From: Sulfoacidibacillus thermotolerans
GTDB taxonomy: Bacteria > Bacillota > Bacilli > Alicyclobacillales > SLC66
Length of the DNA stretch: 64,000 nucleotides
Reading direction: 5' to 3'
Assembly: GCF_003144315.1 (NCBI RefSeq)
Contig: NZ_MPDK01000008.1
Coordinates: 1 to 64,000 of the forward strand
The notes under the pieces were generated by a model. That model did not search any database, was not told the DNA's origin, and saw only the letters and a list, made by a program, of their open reading frames with translations. The stretch's first letter is position 1, and each line of letters begins with the position of its first letter. Made by a program: the position numbers and the translations under genes. Shown in pieces: positions 34,815-43,393 of the stretch.

Positions 34815-35399
34815 TTAGATAAAGTACACGGCAATGTACAAAACTAACCAAGCAATTGCATTAAAAGTCCATACCCACGCAGACGCCTCGACAGAAAAAT
34901 AATGTTGCGGCCCAATCACTCCTTTAGTAGCACGAAGCAACACACTACCAAGAACGAATAAAGCAGCGAGTGTAAAGAACCCTCCGAGGCCGAGCGAAAC
35001 TAAGTGAATCTCACCAAAGGGAGAGATTGCGTCATAACGATGACTGAACATCGGCCACACCATGACAATGAGTGCGAGTACGCCTAAAAGTCCGGTCAAT
35101 TGCAACTGACGTTGCATCTGTAAAAGCGCATTGCGCGCAATTGCGCGAACGGCAAGCCATGATGGAAGGACTCCTAAAAGCAGTAACAGCGTTGGCAAAA
35201 ATCCCCCTAACAACGGGTCTACGCGCCGCGAGACATATGTGTCCGCTAATACAAACCGATCGTTGATTAACATGAAATAGGGAACCATCTGCGACGTTAC
35301 AAATAAGATTAAGCCAAAGCGATTTTGACGCAGTTCCTTCGCTGTCGAAGCTTGCTTAAACGAGGGCGCCGAAGCCTTCTGATCCGTAACTTCTGACAT
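34815..35399 (-). CDS. Heme-copper oxidase subunit III-like
   Basis: The protein is 194 residues from the ATG that follows AAGGAG; the upstream start is excluded because its codons form this ribosome binding site. About five membrane segments (FGLILFVTSQMVPYFMLINDRF, GGFLPTLLLLLGVLPSW, ...). Length and helix count fit the short subunit III of quinol and cytochrome oxidases. Subunit III holds no metal and supports stability of subunit I. It lies 49 nt after subunit I. Confidence 0.8.
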   Translation of the reverse strand: MSEVTDQKASAPSFKQASTAKELRQNRFGLILFVTSQMVPYFMLINDRFVLADTYVSRRVDPLLGGFLPTLLLLLGVLPSWLAVRAIARNALLQMQRQLQLTGLLGVLALIVMVWPMFSHRYDAISPFGEIHLVSLGLGGFFTLAALFVLGSVLLRATKGVIGPQHYFSVEASAWVWTFNAIAWLVLYIAVYFI

Positions 35400-35448
35400 A
35401 GCCGTACACTCCTTTCTCACTGTTACTTCTACTCAATTCTTTAATAGA

Positions 35449-37326
35449 CTAAGAAGTCGGCTCTTTTTGCGGACTGTTTCTGATCGGCAAACGCTGATCA
35501 CGATAATCGTAAAAACCACTTATCACTTTTGGAATGGGATCGAAGTTTTGCTCTCCTGGAGGTGACGCTGTTTGCCATTCAAGCGTTTTTGCCTGCCAAG
35601 GATTATCTTTGGCTACTGGTCCCTTATTCCACATCCAAGCGATATGCAGGAAATTGAATACAAATCCAAGCCCTAACAAAAATGCAAAGAGTGAAACCTC
35701 AAAATTCATCGGTTCAAGATACGACGGATAAACTGGTACCCAGCGATTCATCCCATGCAATCCGAGGAAAAAGAATTGTCCAAAAGTCATATTAAATGCA
35801 ATAAAAACCCAAATTGCACCAACTTTCCCCCAAAATTCGTTGTACATCCGACCAGATAATTTAGGAAACCAATAGAAGAAAGCTGCAAACCAAGAGAAGA
35901 CCATGGCACCAATTACTGTATAGTGAAAATGCGCGACAACAAAAAAGGAGTCATGCACCTGAAGGTTTACGACCGGGTCCGCCAATAAAACTCCAGTCAC
36001 TCCTCCAATTAGAAAGTTAAACATGCTCATAAGCGTATACAAAGTCGGAGTATTGAGCTTCAAATTGGCTCGCCACATCGTACCTAACGATACGAGATAA
36101 GCAAAACCTGTCGGAATCGAAATCATCTCTGTAAAAAAAGAGAAAGGGAGCATTTGACTGTTGCGCATATTAGTAAACATATGGTGAGCCCAGACCAGTC
36201 CACTTAAAATCATGACGAAAACCAACCCGATGATTCCCCACTGGCGTGCAAATAGTGATTTCTGTCCCATTACAGGGAGAATTTCTTGCCATAACGCAAA
36301 GGCAGGTACAACAATGATATACACTTCAGGATGTCCAAATAGCCAAAACATCTCCATATAAGTAAGCGGACTCCCAATTTGCGCAAAGTACGGAAGGGGG
36401 ATCACAGCATTTAAAAGTGCCATCACAAAGGTCATTTGAATTTCAGGCAGCCAAATTAAGTTCAGCAAACTAACCGCAAGAATTCCCCATGCATACATAG
36501 GAATACGATTCCAAGTAAGTCCTGGCGCCCGCTTAAAAAGAATGGTAGCTGTTAGATTGATGGCCACAAGCAAGGAAGACGTCGTTAAAGCAAAAACCCC
36601 GAGATAGTAAAACAAAATGCCTGCAGGGTCTTGTCCAGCAAGAGGTTCATACCCACGCCATCCTGTCGTCCATTGCCCAAGAACAGGACTAATGACAACC
36701 GTTGCGATCCCCGCGGGAACTAACCATTGGCTGACACCAGACATACGAGGAAAAGAAGTAGAATTAGCACCGATCATTAAAGGGATAAAATAGTTCCCAA
36801 ATCCCCCCACGAGAGCCACCGTGCCAACAGAAAACATCATAACCGTCCCATGAACCCCAACGGTCGACAGGTATGCGCCAGGGTTGTTAAAAATCCACAT
36901 TTGCCCTTTCATGAGTTCTAATCGCATGAGCATTGCAGCAAAGCCCGCGATTAAAAAGCCTCCTAACGAAGAAAAAATATACTGTAAACCAATCACTTTA
37001 TGATCTGTGCTGTACATAAAATATTTTCGCCAATCTTGAGGCACTACCCATTCTTCTGGGTATCCTAAGTAGGGTTTAACAGCACCTTCCCATGCACCAA
37101 CTCCTAATATCCATCCCCCTACAGCAGCAACCCACCCGAGTGTCACAGACGCCCTTGTTATAAACGGATGATAGGGCATTCGATCAAAAACTTCGCTTAC
37201 AAGCGTGTTCATCACTAGAAATCCTATCAGCGCCCACAGCAACCCTCGTACCACGGGAGGCAGCATACGTTTTACGCGCGCATGTTCTGAGCGGGCACCG
37301 TGCATATCAGAAACGACTGAACTCAC
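35449..37326 (-). CDS. Heme-copper oxidase subunit I
   Basis: A 625-residue catalytic subunit reducing O2. All metal ligands are present: heme a His159 (GVHGTVMMF) and His468, CuB His332 (GHPEVY, cross-linking Tyr336), His381, His382 (WAHHMF), heme a3 His466 (VVAHFHY). Glu334 of the helix VI HPEV motif is kept. Two usual proton-channel residues appear changed: the D-channel Asp in GAPDMAFPR is Ser189 in GANSTSFPR, and the K-channel Lys in PTGIK is Ala409 in PTGFA. Residues 1-100 form an extra N-terminal part with two hydrophobic helices (~25-42, ~60-78) before TDHKVIG. Start is GTG after AAAGGAGGG. Confidence 0.93.
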   Translation of the reverse strand: MSSVVSDMHGARSEHARVKRMLPPVVRGLLWALIGFLVMNTLVSEVFDRMPYHPFITRASVTLGWVAAVGGWILGVGAWEGAVKPYLGYPEEWVVPQDWRKYFMYSTDHKVIGLQYIFSSLGGFLIAGFAAMLMRLELMKGQMWIFNNPGAYLSTVGVHGTVMMFSVGTVALVGGFGNYFIPLMIGANSTSFPRMSGVSQWLVPAGIATVVISPVLGQWTTGWRGYEPLAGQDPAGILFYYLGVFALTTSSLLVAINLTATILFKRAPGLTWNRIPMYAWGILAVSLLNLIWLPEIQMTFVMALLNAVIPLPYFAQIGSPLTYMEMFWLFGHPEVYIIVVPAFALWQEILPVMGQKSLFARQWGIIGLVFVMILSGLVWAHHMFTNMRNSQMLPFSFFTEMISIPTGFAYLVSLGTMWRANLKLNTPTLYTLMSMFNFLIGGVTGVLLADPVVNLQVHDSFFVVAHFHYTVIGAMVFSWFAAFFYWFPKLSGRMYNEFWGKVGAIWVFIAFNMTFGQFFFLGLHGMNRWVPVYPSYLEPMNFEVSLFAFLLGLGFVFNFLHIAWMWNKGPVAKDNPWQAKTLEWQTASPPGEQNFDPIPKVISGFYDYRDQRLPIRNSPQKEPTS

Positions 37327-37353: not shown

Positions 37354-38169
37354 CTATGATTGTCCAGCTTGTAATTTTTGTTGCTGTTTGATCCAATTCA
37401 TAAAGTCGACATTGGAAACCACATGAACAGGGGCTTCCATAAATGGATGTCCAGGACCACATACTTCAGCACATTGGACGCGAACCATCGGATCTACGTT
37501 GTAGGAAGTCACCTTGTTGGTGTGAACGTACATATATCGCGTTTCTCCAGGGATGATATCTTGTTTGACACCAAACGCTGGGATCCAAAAACTATGAATC
37601 ACCCCGGCATACGGATCATACATATGCATCGGATCATAGGAGCGTAAAACAAATCGCACGGTCCGATCGACCGGTAAGTACAAAATACTGTTGCCATTCG
37701 CATCCTGAGCTTGCGTGATATTGTACTGTGGGTAGTCAAACAACCACTGCCATTGCCGCGCCGTCACATTGATGATCAGATCGTGGCGGTTGTACCGCTC
37801 TTTTTCACTGTTAAACATCTGTTCGACGGCAGAAGCTGTCGGATGAACGAAAAATAATAGATTTAACGCGATACTCACCAAAATCCAAATGCTCACAAAC
37901 ACCTTATTATTGTAAAATTGCCTAGGACTAGGCCGCATACCAGGTTCACGAGAACGAAAGCGAATCATGTCGTAACCGATCATCACAACAATAAAAGCAA
38001 AGACTGGAGTAAGCACCGTAATGATAAACGCAAAAGCAGCTTCGCCGTCGAGCGCTTGCGTAGTTGCTGTATAATAGTAAACTCCGTGATGAATCAAGGA
38101 CTGTATGCCTATCTCGCCAAGTGCAGATACAAGAATCCACACGAGCGTAAAAGCTAGGATATCTCCCAC
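37354..38169 (-). CDS. Heme-copper oxidase subunit II (CuA)
   Basis: A 271-residue subunit with three N-terminal membrane helices (~3-20, ~45-70, ~88-110) and an external cupredoxin domain. The CuA site is complete: His192 (VIHSFWIPAFG), Cys233, Glu235, Cys237, His241 and Met244 (CAEVCGPGHPFM). No heme c motif (CxxCH) is found, so electrons come from a soluble or membrane donor, perhaps one of the adjacent cupredoxins. Start is GTG after AAAGGAGG. Confidence 0.93.
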   Translation of the reverse strand: MGDILAFTLVWILVSALGEIGIQSLIHHGVYYYTATTQALDGEAAFAFIITVLTPVFAFIVVMIGYDMIRFRSREPGMRPSPRQFYNNKVFVSIWILVSIALNLLFFVHPTASAVEQMFNSEKERYNRHDLIINVTARQWQWLFDYPQYNITQAQDANGNSILYLPVDRTVRFVLRSYDPMHMYDPYAGVIHSFWIPAFGVKQDIIPGETRYMYVHTNKVTSYNVDPMVRVQCAEVCGPGHPFMEAPVHVVSNVDFMNWIKQQQKLQAGQS

Positions 38170-38198: not shown

Positions 38199-38828
38199 CT
38201 ATTTAGCTGGTAATATCGTAATCGTCCCATTCATTCCAGCCACATAGTGCATGTATTGTTGCACAAAGCATCCATACTGCCACTCACCTGGCTTATTGGG
38301 GACTGTAAAAGTCAAATTGATCGACCCACCAGGTTGTAGTGTTGGACTAAAATCTCCTCCAGTAGCCAAATTGGGCTTAGAACCGACAAAGGTTGCACGC
38401 GCCTTATTGAGCACTAAATTGTCCACGTGATGTGCATTGCTGATTCTCACAGGGACCCCATCCCAGAAATCTGTCTTAAATTGTGTCGCAATGGCGCCAA
38501 AAGCGCTCGGAACCGTATCATATCCCCTGCCGATTACCATCTCATGCCAATGTGTATCACTCATATTGCGCAGCGCAATCGTCACGCGATCCCCAACACG
38601 CCAAGTGATGTGACGCGGCTCATAGGCATAATCAAATTGAAAGACATGAACTGTGCCTTGCGTTGGCACGCGGTCAAATGCTTTTTGAAAGATCCCTGCA
38701 ATCCAGAAACGGCCAAATAAAACAGCCACCCCAATCAACAGGACAAGTGCGAGTACACCGAAAAACACTCCTGGTTGCCAATCTGTATCCCTATGAAAGC
38801 GCCCCTCAGAATCTACAGTCTTACTCAT
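38199..38828 (-). CDS. Membrane-anchored cupredoxin
   Basis: A 209-residue protein with one N-terminal helix (~19-38) and an external cupredoxin domain (~57-208). Candidate type 1 copper ligands: His93 or His95 (DTHWHEMVIG), Cys187 (YGCFVQQYMH), His194 and Met199 (HYVAGM). The Cys-x6-His-x4-Met spacing is wider than in plastocyanin. It lies directly before subunit II, so it may be the electron donor to CuA. It could instead be a copper chaperone. Confidence 0.8.
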   Translation of the reverse strand: MSKTVDSEGRFHRDTDWQPGVFFGVLALVLLIGVAVLFGRFWIAGIFQKAFDRVPTQGTVHVFQFDYAYEPRHITWRVGDRVTIALRNMSDTHWHEMVIGRGYDTVPSAFGAIATQFKTDFWDGVPVRISNAHHVDNLVLNKARATFVGSKPNLATGGDFSPTLQPGGSINLTFTVPNKPGEWQYGCFVQQYMHYVAGMNGTITILPAK

Positions 38829-38876: not shown

Positions 38877-39407
38877 TTACATGACTGAGACATTTGGATT
38901 GCCACTCGGAACTATGCGCAGCGTATCCCACATACCTAACGCCACATTTGTAGGTTGATGGGAGGGAAACCGATATAAATAATTCGCAATGTAGAAAGTG
39001 CCAATCTGACTTGCAGTAAATGAGTACGTTGCTGAATCGCCTGGCACAATGCCAAGAGTCGGATTGAAATCATAGTCTGCAATTGAATTCCCCGCACCTT
39101 TAAATGCAACGCGCTGATTTGCATCATAAATGCCCACTGAGTAAGGAATTCCTCCATCATTGGTAAAGTGGAGACGAACACGATAGCCAAGTGGAACCGT
39201 GACGATCATCTTGCCGTGTGCATATCCGTCATAGTTATTCCACATATTGTTGCTGTTATATCCTGCCGTCAGATACAGATCGACTGTTCGTGTCACTGAA
39301 TTTGCTGATAACACGCTTGCAGGATCCGCTGCTGGCGTGTAACTGCAAGCAGTGGCTACTAGTGAAAGAAGACCTGTGCCTACCAAGAGAAGCGATCGTG
39401 AGATCAC
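38877..39407 (-). CDS. Sulfocyanin-like lipoprotein lacking two copper ligands
   Basis: A 176-residue protein with a signal peptide and probable lipid attachment Cys21 (VATAC). The rest follows the sulfocyanin pattern: LYLTAGYNSNN, YDGYAHGKMIVTVPLGYRV, LHFTNDGGIPY, then SATYSFTASQIGTFYIA and GMWDTLRIV. Sulfocyanin ligands are His, Cys, His, Met. Here the first His is Tyr89 (IPYSV), the Cys position is Asn142 (YIANY), while His150 and Met159 remain. So a normal type 1 blue-copper site cannot form. It sits between ctaG and the intact cupredoxin; the start is GTG after GGAGG. Confidence 0.72.
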   Translation of the reverse strand: MISRSLLLVGTGLLSLVATACSYTPAADPASVLSANSVTRTVDLYLTAGYNSNNMWNNYDGYAHGKMIVTVPLGYRVRLHFTNDGGIPYSVGIYDANQRVAFKGAGNSIADYDFNPTLGIVPGDSATYSFTASQIGTFYIANYLYRFPSHQPTNVALGMWDTLRIVPSGNPNVSVM

Positions 39408-39522: not shown

Positions 39523-40317
39523 TTAGACATACCAAATTGATTCATCTTGGTGGAAATATAAGCGCAGGGCAATTGTTCCATACACGACATACATCGTGAC
39601 AAGCATCACTACACTGCCCAGTTGTTGATCTGCGAGCGCGTCAATCGCGTGATAGAAAGGAAACCAAGGGGAGGTGGAAAAGAAAAGAAAGAAAATGATC
39701 GGCATCATAAAATTTGCTGAATAAGTAATATAAAAAAGTTTTTGCCCAAGGGTAAGTGCAGACACTTTTGACAAAGGCGCCGCAAGGGGCCACCAGAAGC
39801 AAATGGCAGCAAGAAAAATGAAAAATTGCGCAATCATATGCACCCAATTCACAGTCAACATCAAGGGAAGAATAGGAGGCAACAATGTAACACTGACTAG
39901 TGCATTAAAAGTCACAAGTGCAAAAGCTGGTTGTACTAGAAATTGCAGCGTCCGAGCCACCCAGGAGATCGTAAGCCATGGAGAAAACGCACTTGGCGGC
40001 AAACTAAAGACGAGCAACCAGGGCAATGCCATCGTCATAATCAACATTTGAGCGATATACGCTGTGAAAAAGCGCGTCTGTGCATAGAAGGCAAGTGGAC
40101 CATATGCGATATAGAGCAACACAATTCCAACAAAAAACGCGACATAGCGAGCAGGTGTAGACCAGCGTCTGCGCTTTTCTTGTTGTGGATCTGCAGCAAC
40201 TTGACGCACAATACGCACTTCAAACAATACAAATGTCAATGCGAGTAGAAAAACCAAAAGTACAACGTCTGGGCGCCATAGCAACCATTGCTCATGCATG
40301 TTCTCTAGCCATGCCAT
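39523..40317 (-). CDS. ctaG: Cytochrome c oxidase assembly protein CtaG (caa3 type)
   Basis: The protein is 264 residues from the ATG preceded by AGGAG; a GTG 12 nt earlier overlaps that site. About seven membrane segments; typical stretches are LAFYAQTRFFTAYIAQMLIMTMALPWLLV and MIAQFFIFLAAICFWWPLAAP. CtaG of Bacillus is needed for caa3 oxidase assembly, probably in copper insertion. It lies between the copper ATPase and the cupredoxin genes, supporting an assembly role. Confidence 0.9.
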   Translation of the reverse strand: MAWLENMHEQWLLWRPDVVLLVFLLALTFVLFEVRIVRQVAADPQQEKRRRWSTPARYVAFFVGIVLLYIAYGPLAFYAQTRFFTAYIAQMLIMTMALPWLLVFSLPPSAFSPWLTISWVARTLQFLVQPAFALVTFNALVSVTLLPPILPLMLTVNWVHMIAQFFIFLAAICFWWPLAAPLSKVSALTLGQKLFYITYSANFMMPIIFFLFFSTSPWFPFYHAIDALADQQLGSVVMLVTMYVVYGTIALRLYFHQDESIWYV

Positions 40318-40345
40318 GAAATTTCTCACTCCTGTAAGTCAACTT

Positions 40346-42811
40346 CTAAACGCGATAAAATGCCAGCAACCATAGCACCACTCCAAAACTTCCAATCAAT
40401 GTGACACGCAAAAGATAATGCCGCACTGAAAAATCGGACACACGCAACGAATTTCCAAGCACAAAAACACTCGATAACATCATGGCCAGTGCAGCCAAAG
40501 CAGGAGAAGCGATTCCTGTTACGGCTAACAATTGCGCAAGCAAGTTATAGGAAATTGCCCAAAGTAAATTCTGCCGAATCACAGTAAAAGTGAGTCGTGC
40601 GGTCGTTAGAATGCGCGAAATAGCCTGGATGTCATTGTGAGCGAGCACGAGATGACCCGCTTCGAGTGCGATATCGGGGCTAGAACCTAAGGCGATCCCG
40701 AGATCTGCTTCCACTAAAGCTGGTGAGTCGTTAACCCCGTCCCCCACAAACGCAACGCGAATCCCCCTATTTTTAAAACTGCAAATCAAATCCGCTTTTT
40801 GTAAAGCAGTCTGCCGCGCATAGAAGTGCTGGACCTCCAGCCTTTGTGCGACAAGGGATGTTGCTGATTCTGAATCCCCGCTCGCAATCGCAAGTTCGAT
40901 TCCCTTCCCTTTTAGTTCCCTGATGAGAGGTAACACGCCAGTCCGCAATTCATCGGACAAACTAATCGCCGCAAAAACTTCTCCATTCATAACCGCGTAG
41001 ACTATAGTCAACCCCTGAGTACGCCAACGCGCTAGCACCGCGTCCCATTCACAGGGTACCACTCCACTCGTGACGGATGCCCCAACTTGCAGCGTACGCC
41101 CTTCTACAACCGCTTGAATTCCCCAACTTGTCAGTTCCTTAAAAGAGGTGACTGGGTAGAGAGTCAGTCCTAATTCTTTTGCTTTTCTCACGAAGGCATC
41201 TGCGATAGGATGTTCTGAAGGTAATTCAGCTGAGGCAATCCATTTGAAAATTTCTGATCGCTCTTTAGGCAAATAGTCAAACACACTGAGTCGACCAGTG
41301 GTGATTGTCCCAGTCTTATCAAAAACAACCGCTTGTATTTGTCCCGCACGTTCTAAGGCGTCAGGACTGCGCAGCAAAACGCCCAAAGAGGCCAATTTTT
41401 TTGCGCCATTTAAGATTGCAAGCGGCGTGGCAATGCTAAGTGCACATGGACAACCGATGACAAGCACTGCAATTGCTCGCAAAAGAGCAGTTGCAAAATC
41501 AATATGGCGTATCAAATCCCAGTAAAGAAACGTAAGCAATCCCATCGCGAAAACAAAAGGGACAAATACCTGCAAGATGCGGTCGGCCAACCTCTTCCAA
41601 TGTGATTGTTTTGCCTGTGCCATGCGCACATACTGTGCAGTTTGCTCAAGCAAAGTCTGAGTGCTACGAACCACTTCTAGAACAGCCCTTTCGCCAAACA
41701 GCCTCGATCCAGCATAAACGAGATCGCGCACTCCTTTCTCTACGCGCTTTGCTTCCCCTGTAAGGATGGATTCGTCTGCCAACACTGCTCCTTCGATAAG
41801 ACGCGCATCTACCGGTACTACTTCACCATGTCCACAGACAAAATGTTCTCCACTCAAGACATGCTCTACGCGTTTTGTGACTATTTCTCCATTTTGCAAG
41901 ACTTGCATTTCTTCCGGGATCAAGCGTTTTGCTACGTGTAAAATTTGAAGGGCCCGCAACCGTGCGGCGTATTCAAGATTGCGACTGAGGAGTAAAAAGG
42001 TGATTAGTAACCCCACCGTGTCAAAGTAGAGGAAGCGTTGCGTAGTCAATAAACTCGCCACACTATATCCGTAAGCAGCAATACTCCCGATGGAAACAAG
42101 CAAATCCATCGTTGGAATGCGATTGTGTAGACTAGCAAGCGCACCACGTAAAAATGGCCATCCGCTATAAAATAGCACAATCGATGTTAATCCGAGTAAA
42201 AAACCCACTACTAGTGTTCGTAAGGCGTGTGGAAACTGTGGCAAGTACTCCGACCAGATCGGAACACTCAACATCATCATGATTGCAGTGAGGATTAACG
42301 CAAGCAAAAAGCGCCGCAAGAGTTTCGCTCCTGCAAAGTCCTCTTCCTCTGTCTCAATTACAGAGTGAGCAGTATATCCAAGTTTTTCAATTTCTGCTTG
42401 CACTCGTTCCTTAGAAATGCAACTTGCGTCTAAAGCAATCTCTGCAATGCTTTCAGTAAAATCTAACTTCGCGGAAATGACGCCATGTTGCCGTAATAAC
42501 ACCTGTTCGATCAGGATCGCACAAGATGGGCAAGTTATCCCCTCGATGCGAAATGCCGTACGCTGTGGATCGATCGCCTGTAATAAAGAGGGTGCTTGTG
42601 CGTTTGCTGATTCTTTCTTTATAGACTCTAATCGAAGACCCGGCTGTTGTTTTAAGATTGCTACTTGCTGTTCGCCAAGTACCTCGTACAGCTCTTTACA
42701 TCCATGACAACAAAACACGTGATGCCCTGACGGAATTGGCAACCGCACCGTTTGCCCACACATATCACATAATCCCGTTGCAGACTCCTTCACTTTTAGC
42801 CACTCACTCAC
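40346..42811 (-). CDS. Copper P-type ATPase, FixI/CcoI type
   Basis: An 821-residue P1B ATPase. The N-terminus holds a cysteine-rich module (CDMCG..., FCCHGCKELYEVLG) characteristic of FixI/CcoI, then an HMA domain with CPSC (Cys94, Cys97). About eight helices carry the metal-transport motif CPC in IGCPCALSIATP; the phosphorylation motif is DKTGT, the SEHP motif is at SAELPSEHPIADAF and the hinge at GDGVNDSPAL. FixI-type pumps supply copper for oxidase assembly rather than detoxification. Start is GTG after GGAGGAG. It precedes ctaG by 28 nt. Confidence 0.93.
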   Translation of the reverse strand: MSEWLKVKESATGLCDMCGQTVRLPIPSGHHVFCCHGCKELYEVLGEQQVAILKQQPGLRLESIKKESANAQAPSLLQAIDPQRTAFRIEGITCPSCAILIEQVLLRQHGVISAKLDFTESIAEIALDASCISKERVQAEIEKLGYTAHSVIETEEEDFAGAKLLRRFLLALILTAIMMMLSVPIWSEYLPQFPHALRTLVVGFLLGLTSIVLFYSGWPFLRGALASLHNRIPTMDLLVSIGSIAAYGYSVASLLTTQRFLYFDTVGLLITFLLLSRNLEYAARLRALQILHVAKRLIPEEMQVLQNGEIVTKRVEHVLSGEHFVCGHGEVVPVDARLIEGAVLADESILTGEAKRVEKGVRDLVYAGSRLFGERAVLEVVRSTQTLLEQTAQYVRMAQAKQSHWKRLADRILQVFVPFVFAMGLLTFLYWDLIRHIDFATALLRAIAVLVIGCPCALSIATPLAILNGAKKLASLGVLLRSPDALERAGQIQAVVFDKTGTITTGRLSVFDYLPKERSEIFKWIASAELPSEHPIADAFVRKAKELGLTLYPVTSFKELTSWGIQAVVEGRTLQVGASVTSGVVPCEWDAVLARWRTQGLTIVYAVMNGEVFAAISLSDELRTGVLPLIRELKGKGIELAIASGDSESATSLVAQRLEVQHFYARQTALQKADLICSFKNRGIRVAFVGDGVNDSPALVEADLGIALGSSPDIALEAGHLVLAHNDIQAISRILTTARLTFTVIRQNLLWAISYNLLAQLLAVTGIASPALAALAMMLSSVFVLGNSLRVSDFSVRHYLLRVTLIGSFGVVLWLLAFYRV

Positions 42812-42868: not shown

Positions 42869-43393
42869 TCACCACGCATTTTCACTTAAAACATTCGTAA
42901 TGACCATCAACATCCCAATCGAACTTAAGAAAAAACCAAACCACGCATAGGATTGTAAGAGAATAACCCATGCCACCCCTGTGAACAATCCCATCCCATA
43001 TAACAAAAGATCAGACTCAAATAACAACACAGGATGATGGTCAACAAAAAATTCAAGTGCTGGGAGACCCCAAAAAACACTCGCACTCATTGCAAGTACA
43101 ATCACGAGCGCGGCAATTGAATGGAGGAGGGATTGCACGCGCTTTGGCGGCCACTGTGGCAAAAGTACCGCAAGCATTTGCTGTGCACCGTTTGCCGTGC
43201 TGACACCAATACCAAGTCCAAGTAAAAGTCCTGAACTCACGAGCAACCAATTGATTAATGCATGCAAAACGATGGCACCACGCGCGTCTAAATTCGTATA
43301 AAGTGACACAACCTTGCCGTTAACAGCAAGGACATAACTAGATATTGAAAAAATAAACAGTGCAAAACGACTGTGCAAGATCAACCGTTCCAC
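42869..43393 (-). CDS. Membrane protein, unknown, head of oxidase locus
   Basis: A 174-residue protein with about four membrane segments and short loops; His44, His91 and His119-His120 are near membrane ends. No recognised domain. It lies 57 nt before the copper ATPase on the same strand and is preceded by GAGG before a GTG start. A role in oxidase assembly or copper or heme handling is inferred from context alone. Confidence 0.65.
   Translation of the reverse strand: MERLILHSRFALFIFSISSYVLAVNGKVVSLYTNLDARGAIVLHALINWLLVSSGLLLGLGIGVSTANGAQQMLAVLLPQWPPKRVQSLLHSIAALVIVLAMSASVFWGLPALEFFVDHHPVLLFESDLLLYGMGLFTGVAWVILLQSYAWFGFFLSSIGMLMVITNVLSENAW

Follow-up and report, generated by a model that had tools for sequence, protein, structure and literature searches.

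What does a sulfocyanin do in an oxidase operon once the residues that hold its copper are gone? The question is posed by a gene of Sulfoacidibacillus thermotolerans that lies within the first 64,000 nucleotides of contig NZ_MPDK01000008.1 (hereafter the window, meaning this whole stretch) and that an initial annotation had described as a sulfocyanin-like protein with an eroded copper site. The gene and its neighbours are as follows.

38877..39407, minus strand: copper-free sulfocyanin-like lipoprotein, 176 aa (open reading frame list, Pfam SoxE, alignments, tree)
38199..38828, minus strand: AcoP-type cupredoxin with a predicted N-terminal membrane helix and intact ligands His95, Cys187, His194 and Met199 (phmmer to PDB 7z3b, E 8e-21; model)
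37354..38169, minus strand: oxidase subunit II with CuA motif (CAEVCGPGHPFM) (PF00116; motif read from the translation)
35449..37326, minus strand: oxidase subunit I (PF00115, E 2.5e-105)
34815..35420, minus strand: oxidase subunit III-like protein (PF00510, E 2.7e-7)
39523..40329, minus strand: CtaG, an assembly factor for caa3 oxidases, encoded upstream of the copper-free protein (PF09678, E 7.9e-32)
40346..42811, minus strand: copper-type P1B ATPase, with HMA domain and E1-E2 ATPase (Pfam; presumed metal specificity)

On the minus strand the order is copper-type ATPase, ctaG, copper-free gene, cupredoxin, and subunits II, I and III, with intergenic gaps of 16, 115, 48, 29, 27 and 28 nt from the ATPase through subunit III; the copper-free gene does lie between ctaG and an intact cupredoxin, as first read. 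With its 16-nt gap, the ATPase perhaps shares one transcription unit with ctaG. The reading frame at 38877-39407 is intact, starts with GTG 11 nt after a GGAGG (direct reading) and encodes 176 aa with the lipobox at Cys21. Promoter-like sites around the operon numbered 6 against a shuffle mean of 15.9, and terminator-like sites 12 against 9.9, and neither count helps to place the operon's borders. At window positions 42869-43393 we also noted a gene for a 174-aa protein without Pfam match, which is retained near the copper ATPase in several relatives.

Is the protein a sulfocyanin at all? It passes the gathering cut-off of Pfam SoxE (PF06525) with 29.5 bits against 21, as do two clade members from the Sulfobacillus group (26.7 and 31.5 bits), and it shares with sulfocyanin (SoxE; PF06525, TIGR03094) the N-terminal half, the cupredoxin scaffold, Trp160 and, in most rows of the alignment, the motif N-(F/Y)-(N/D)-G-Y-x-x-G. 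The sulfocyanin framework is thus kept, as the initial annotation held. The best PF06525 stretch, residues 32-97, ends ahead of the Cys/His/Met loop, and automatic annotation can therefore hide a loss of ligands. The sulfocyanin equivalog TIGR03094 gave 23.8 bits, far below its cut-off of 168.4, but this cut-off is strict, since even copper-type SoxE proteins miss it (two from the same order reach 76.4 and 63.2 bits). A search of solved structures with the sequence returned weak matches only (best E 0.056). The predicted model is of moderate confidence (mean pLDDT 78, falling to about 60 in the loop that once held ligands) and shows a Greek-key beta sandwich of cupredoxin type; its best fold match had Z 12.2, rmsd 5.0 and 129 aligned residues, its second Z 12.1, rmsd 2.7 and 119 aligned, and the matches listed comprised multicopper oxidases, copper nitrite reductases, nitrous oxide reductases and CuA domains.

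The copper site itself is gone. Tyr89 occupies the position of the first His and Asn142 that of the Cys. In all 48 copper-type rows these two columns contain His and Cys; the rows were sorted by the presence of Cys in the loop, so only their His count is independent. With first His and Cys replaced and no substitute Cys, a normal blue-copper (type-1) centre is not possible, which upholds the earlier reading. A loop to His150 longer by three residues had also been proposed, and this stands if His150 is the second His; the whole loop from residue 142 to Trp160 spans 19 residues in the window protein, seven more than the 12 found in 47/48 copper-type rows.

How old is the loss? A search of 61 related genomes with the window protein gave matches in 40, and 51 different proteins from them went into an alignment; inspection, here and in the 151-genome search described below, stopped short of a number of the weakest matches. 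Matches belonging to the copper-free clade had E values of 7e-33 or better, the next match 2e-16. Window-type proteins were aligned as a set of 31, and copper-type SoxE proteins joined in wider sets, which after de-duplication on the last 90 residues gave 120 SoxE-like rows, 58 of them without the loop Cys; two of these 58 (L203:5737-6210 and L121) have incomplete alignments or are truncated and should not pass as copper-free, yet they are counted among the 58 and in the Fisher test. The tree took 102 of the 120 rows, with ligand columns excluded, and leaves out L203:5737, L121 and L111, the rows of twelve loci treated as redundant (L100, L106, L112, L114, L115, L116, L117, L118, L122, L136, L140 and L166), any row shorter than 90 residues, and any that shared at least 93 percent identity with a retained row. 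This tree unites 50 copper-free proteins in a single clade (support 100/97), although the bootstrap had not fully settled.

Within the clade the type-1 set of His, Cys, His and Met is absent. Residue 142 is Cys in none of the 50 rows (Asn in 24, Asp in 21, Ser in 5), the first His is present in 1/50 as against 48/48 Cys-bearing rows, the loop from residue 142 to Trp160 has 15-26 residues instead of the usual 12, and Met is optional; together with the TIGR03094 score, these features set the clade apart from sulfocyanin. Conversely, Tyr94 is specific to the clade (50/50 rows vs 0/48 copper-type rows). Every clade member carries a lipobox-like pattern, by a permissive pattern, and the lipobox Cys is invariant in the 31 window-type proteins aligned. 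Because no other Cys follows in the mature part of 49/50 members, a second Cys/His pair completing the site is not available, and orthologues keeping both His and Cys, which would have pointed to a sequencing or recent mutation effect, do not occur in the clade. A recent mutation or sequencing error is ruled out by a loss common to the whole clade. By alignment and tree, the loss is fixed in a clade with members in the window's class and in a second group of class rank, probably Sulfobacillus included; the observation is confirmed and stronger than had been supposed, and "eroded" was right as to the loss but too weak a word.

Four further SoxE-like rows outside the clade also miss the Cys (L047:7178-7795, L041:563-1225, L233:11650-12180 and L107:7767-8450), apparently through separate losses; L233 and L041 sit on long branches and their placement is unsure. 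The L233 gene is found some 2 kb away from an AcoP-cox operon and on the opposite strand.

The copper-free protein is strongly constrained and under purifying selection. dN/dS was 0.07-0.10 in four clade pairs, higher than for AcoP and subunit II; the estimate comes from these four other pairs only, because synonymous sites were saturated in the pair formed by the window protein and that of G001, a genome of the same genus.

What does the gene travel with? In 31/31 loci of the relatives' alignments it lies directly upstream of acoP-coxB-coxA-coxC (in L064 the contig breaks off ahead of subunit III). Of the 61 relatives, 19 carry the clade, and AcoP is found in exactly those 19; 2 of 33 strong AcoP matches in the relatives are without the copper-free gene. 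We extended the comparison to 151 genomes of the second class-level group, that of a related MAG (the Sulfobacillus group), where AcoP was found in 13/13 genomes with the clade vs 28/151 overall (two of the 28 match at E about 1e-5 only). Across the 120 de-duplicated SoxE-like proteins, 40 Cys-less ones have AcoP directly downstream (same strand, gap below 900 nt, largest seen 554) vs 0/62 Cys-bearing ones; the Fisher tests on co-occurrence treat rows as independent of shared ancestry. In a search of the class, 42 of 398 genomes matched, and beyond the relatives the sole strong match was in G147 (E 5e-68), where the operon is present (L240).

The neighbour is an AcoP by sequence and fold, with ligands His and Cys-x6-His-x4-Met and an N-terminal transmembrane helix (residues 19-51 of the model); its top fold matches are 7z3i, 7z3g and 7z3b, and the four ligands are invariant in 31/31 aligned AcoP proteins. 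It is this gene next door that is homologous to AcoP of Acidithiobacillus ferrooxidans (PDB 7z3b), and the copper-free protein is not itself an AcoP. We know of no SoxE-like gene at the AcoP locus of A. ferrooxidans. As far as the available text of the two studies goes, AcoP of that species purifies together with the oxidase, whose activity it supports (PMC4059628, PMC5982212), and AcoP homologues in acidophiles lie in cytochrome oxidase clusters, like the window's neighbour gene (PMC4059628).

Which proteins could feed the oxidase? By direct reading, the CuA motif of subunit II is complete. The window's genome holds two SoxE-family genes above the cut-off, both copper-free, and a third SoxE match is weak and confined to the first third of the model, signal region included. 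We found no match there to the cytochrome c models PF13442 and PF00034 (controls positive in 7 and 8 of 14 genomes), to PF00127 (control 5/14 genomes) or to the rusticyanin model TIGR03095 (control 1/14, below its cut-off); the assembly is a draft of 135 contigs, in which absence of matches is no proof. The only complete type-1 candidates found were its two AcoP proteins, although other divergent cupredoxins could have escaped, since the family models did not list AcoP itself. CuA-type oxidases without a detected cytochrome c suggest that a cupredoxin feeds the oxidase, and the finding points to AcoP as the redox partner.

Two further loci of this genome deserve mention. A PF13473 cupredoxin-like protein (L251:1459-1875) has His but no Cys in the ligand region. 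On contig C35 (L031) there is a second complete copper-free SoxE - AcoP - coxB - coxA - coxC operon, whose SoxE-like protein shares 41 percent identity with the window protein.

What, then, is the role of the copper-free lipoprotein? We consider it probable that a former sulfocyanin now serves as an accessory or docking subunit of the AcoP-aa3 oxidase. A sulfocyanin would have permanently lost its copper site and become a lipid-anchored, copper-free accessory subunit of an aa3-type oxidase with CuA, and the neighbouring AcoP-type cupredoxin would be the dedicated redox partner of that oxidase. Most likely placed on the outer face of the membrane, the lipoprotein would dock or hold AcoP against subunit II and perhaps also shape the surface where the electron donor binds. 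It would bind no metal itself and would touch AcoP or subunit II directly. By taking over the redox role, AcoP may have freed SoxE from copper. Among the roles proposed earlier, that of a docking subunit fits best; it draws on the fixed loss in one clade, the lipobox, purifying selection and the tight genetic linkage with acoP-cox, from which we infer a physical interaction.

A domain of this kind losing its metal has a parallel. In the CyoA-type subunit II of quinol oxidases, the cupredoxin domain of a haem-copper oxidase has lost copper and kept a structural role. CyoA, however, is subunit II itself; in the present operon CuA is retained in subunit II, and the copper was lost from a separate lipoprotein. 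The operon may offer a natural case of a redox domain turned probable structural subunit beside a cupredoxin that retains its site.

Alternatively, the protein could act independently as a structural or cell-envelope lipoprotein, in sensing or envelope attachment for example, and just travel with acoP-cox. Several copper-free copies of the Sulfobacillus group lie away from cox genes (for example L203, L211, L215, L221 and L226), and there are AcoP-cox operons without the gene: 13/21 fetched Sulfobacillus-group AcoP loci (chosen, not random) have no SoxE directly upstream. The copper-free gene is therefore not always needed. Yet the co-occurrence with AcoP is exact in the 61 relatives and the gene order is the same in two class-level groups, and we regard an independent role as unlikely.

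Could the protein instead be a copper chaperone that loads CuA or AcoP through residues outside the type-1 set? The gene adjoins ctaG and the copper-type ATPase in the window and several relatives, and the His150/Met159 pair is kept in the window's branch; but the link to ctaG and the ATPase holds in part of the clade only, and no copper chaperone family appeared among the Pfam matches. Nor is a copper-binding motif conserved: no His or Cys is, and Met is in part (His150 12/50, Met159 31/50), Met being lost in 17/19 Sulfobacillus-group rows, those upstream of AcoP-cox included, and the mature part of 49/50 having no Cys. Among His, Cys, Met, Asp and Glu, a search of the 50 rows for conserved replacement ligands found only Met159 and Asp161 (31/50 each) to reach 60 percent, and since Asp161 is also common in copper-type rows (26/48), there is no shared replacement site. 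The chaperone put forward in the initial annotation is disfavoured and quite unlikely, because the clade as a whole conserves no soft metal ligand, and for the same reason its idea of a new way of binding copper finds no support.

A third reading turns the former pocket into a carboxylate site for another kind of metal, a hard one such as iron; in Sulfobacillus and its group, the vacated pocket would then be a Glu/Asp iron site at the cell surface. In that group alone, Glu stands at the His position in 18/19 rows and Asp at the Cys position in 14/19, and both Alicyclobacillus ferrooxydans and S. thermosulfidooxidans respire on iron, according to the available part of PMC5143472. The pair is not clade-wide, however: in the remaining 31 rows residue 89 is mostly Tyr, Phe or Ala, and residue 142 mostly Asn or Asp. 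Carboxylates are, moreover, poor metal binders at very low external pH. We hold a hard-metal site in general, and the surface iron site in Sulfobacillus in particular, to be very improbable.

A decaying pseudogene or sequencing artefact, for which the lost ligands might speak, is a negligible prospect given an open frame in a conserved set, the low dN/dS in four pairs, the invariant residues and a second copy in the same genome likewise without ligands.

To return to the proposed docking subunit, in which organisms would it act? Named carriers of the operon are Alicyclobacillus ferrooxydans, A. tolerans, A. mengziensis, Alicyclobacillus sp. ALC3 and Ferroacidibacillus organovorans, in addition to Bacillota MAGs; A. 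ferrooxydans apart, these named carriers too are known as iron oxidisers. Alicyclobacillus sendaiensis, A. mali and A. fructus showed copper-type SoxE only, by tree and by a scan of genome contigs with one peptide pattern, which missed Sulfobacillus members. At the A. fructus locus L101, a copper-type SoxE lies directly before the oxidase pair, and the locus is without AcoP match, a contrast in keeping with the docking reading. Strain S0AB oxidises iron and has a 'sulfocyanin-like' gene clustered with cytochromes (PMC9387220).

Iron respiration of Gram-positive acidophiles is described as poorly understood (PMC6803676, in the text available), and among the candidate carriers in Sulfobacillus is sulfocyanin (PMC4062416, PMC6315122, likewise). 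The soxE genes of S. thermosulfidooxidans are discussed in the available text of PMC6315122, and we compared its locus tags with G556, a genome of the Sulfobacillus group. At L241 of that genome the order coxA, coxB, acoP, purK, purE, hypothetical, cydB, cydA (names from translations) fits Sulth_0488, 0489, 0494 and 0495, and a cox3-cox1-cox2-acoP-soxE set about 36 kb off fits Sulth_0449 to 0453; Sulth_0452 was not found in the main text of that paper as available. G495 has a similar locus spacing and a copper-free protein there too (L201). By gene order, Sulth_0453 would be the counterpart of L213:5883-6392 and a member of the copper-free clade, most likely with none of the four copper ligands; its tag number places it beside cox genes. 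The same source lists it as 'Sulfocyanin (SoxE)', regulated with the oxidase and among the soxE genes suggested for iron oxidation (PMC6315122). These results indicate that where a sulfocyanin gene accompanies the AcoP-type oxidase, as by gene order Sulth_0453 does, its product is without the copper ligands. Copper-type SoxE proteins are also present in the Sulfobacillus group, so not every Sulfobacillus sulfocyanin is affected.

More tentatively, we suggest that Gram-positive iron oxidisers may have converted a blue-copper carrier into a copper-free adaptor holding a green AcoP-type cupredoxin on the CuA subunit, and that the oxidase-linked 'sulfocyanin' of Firmicutes iron-respiration schemes might then be non-redox; we would not give this wider proposal quite an even chance. 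The archaeal blue-copper proteins studied keep their ligands, as far as the available text of PMC3750248 goes. Our literature search, which left subscription papers mostly outside, found no published statement that these sulfocyanins lack copper ligands. The earlier remark that no such protein had been described thus holds for the missing ligands, but a 'sulfocyanin-like' gene clustered with cytochromes was already in print, in the report on S0AB.

Finally, in two Sulfobacillus-group genomes a copper-free SoxE lies near a second, short SoxE in a locus without cox matches (L211:6812-8808 and L203:5737-7735). In L211 the short SoxE keeps its Cys, and a small protein with a below-cut-off TusA match is encoded between both SoxE genes.
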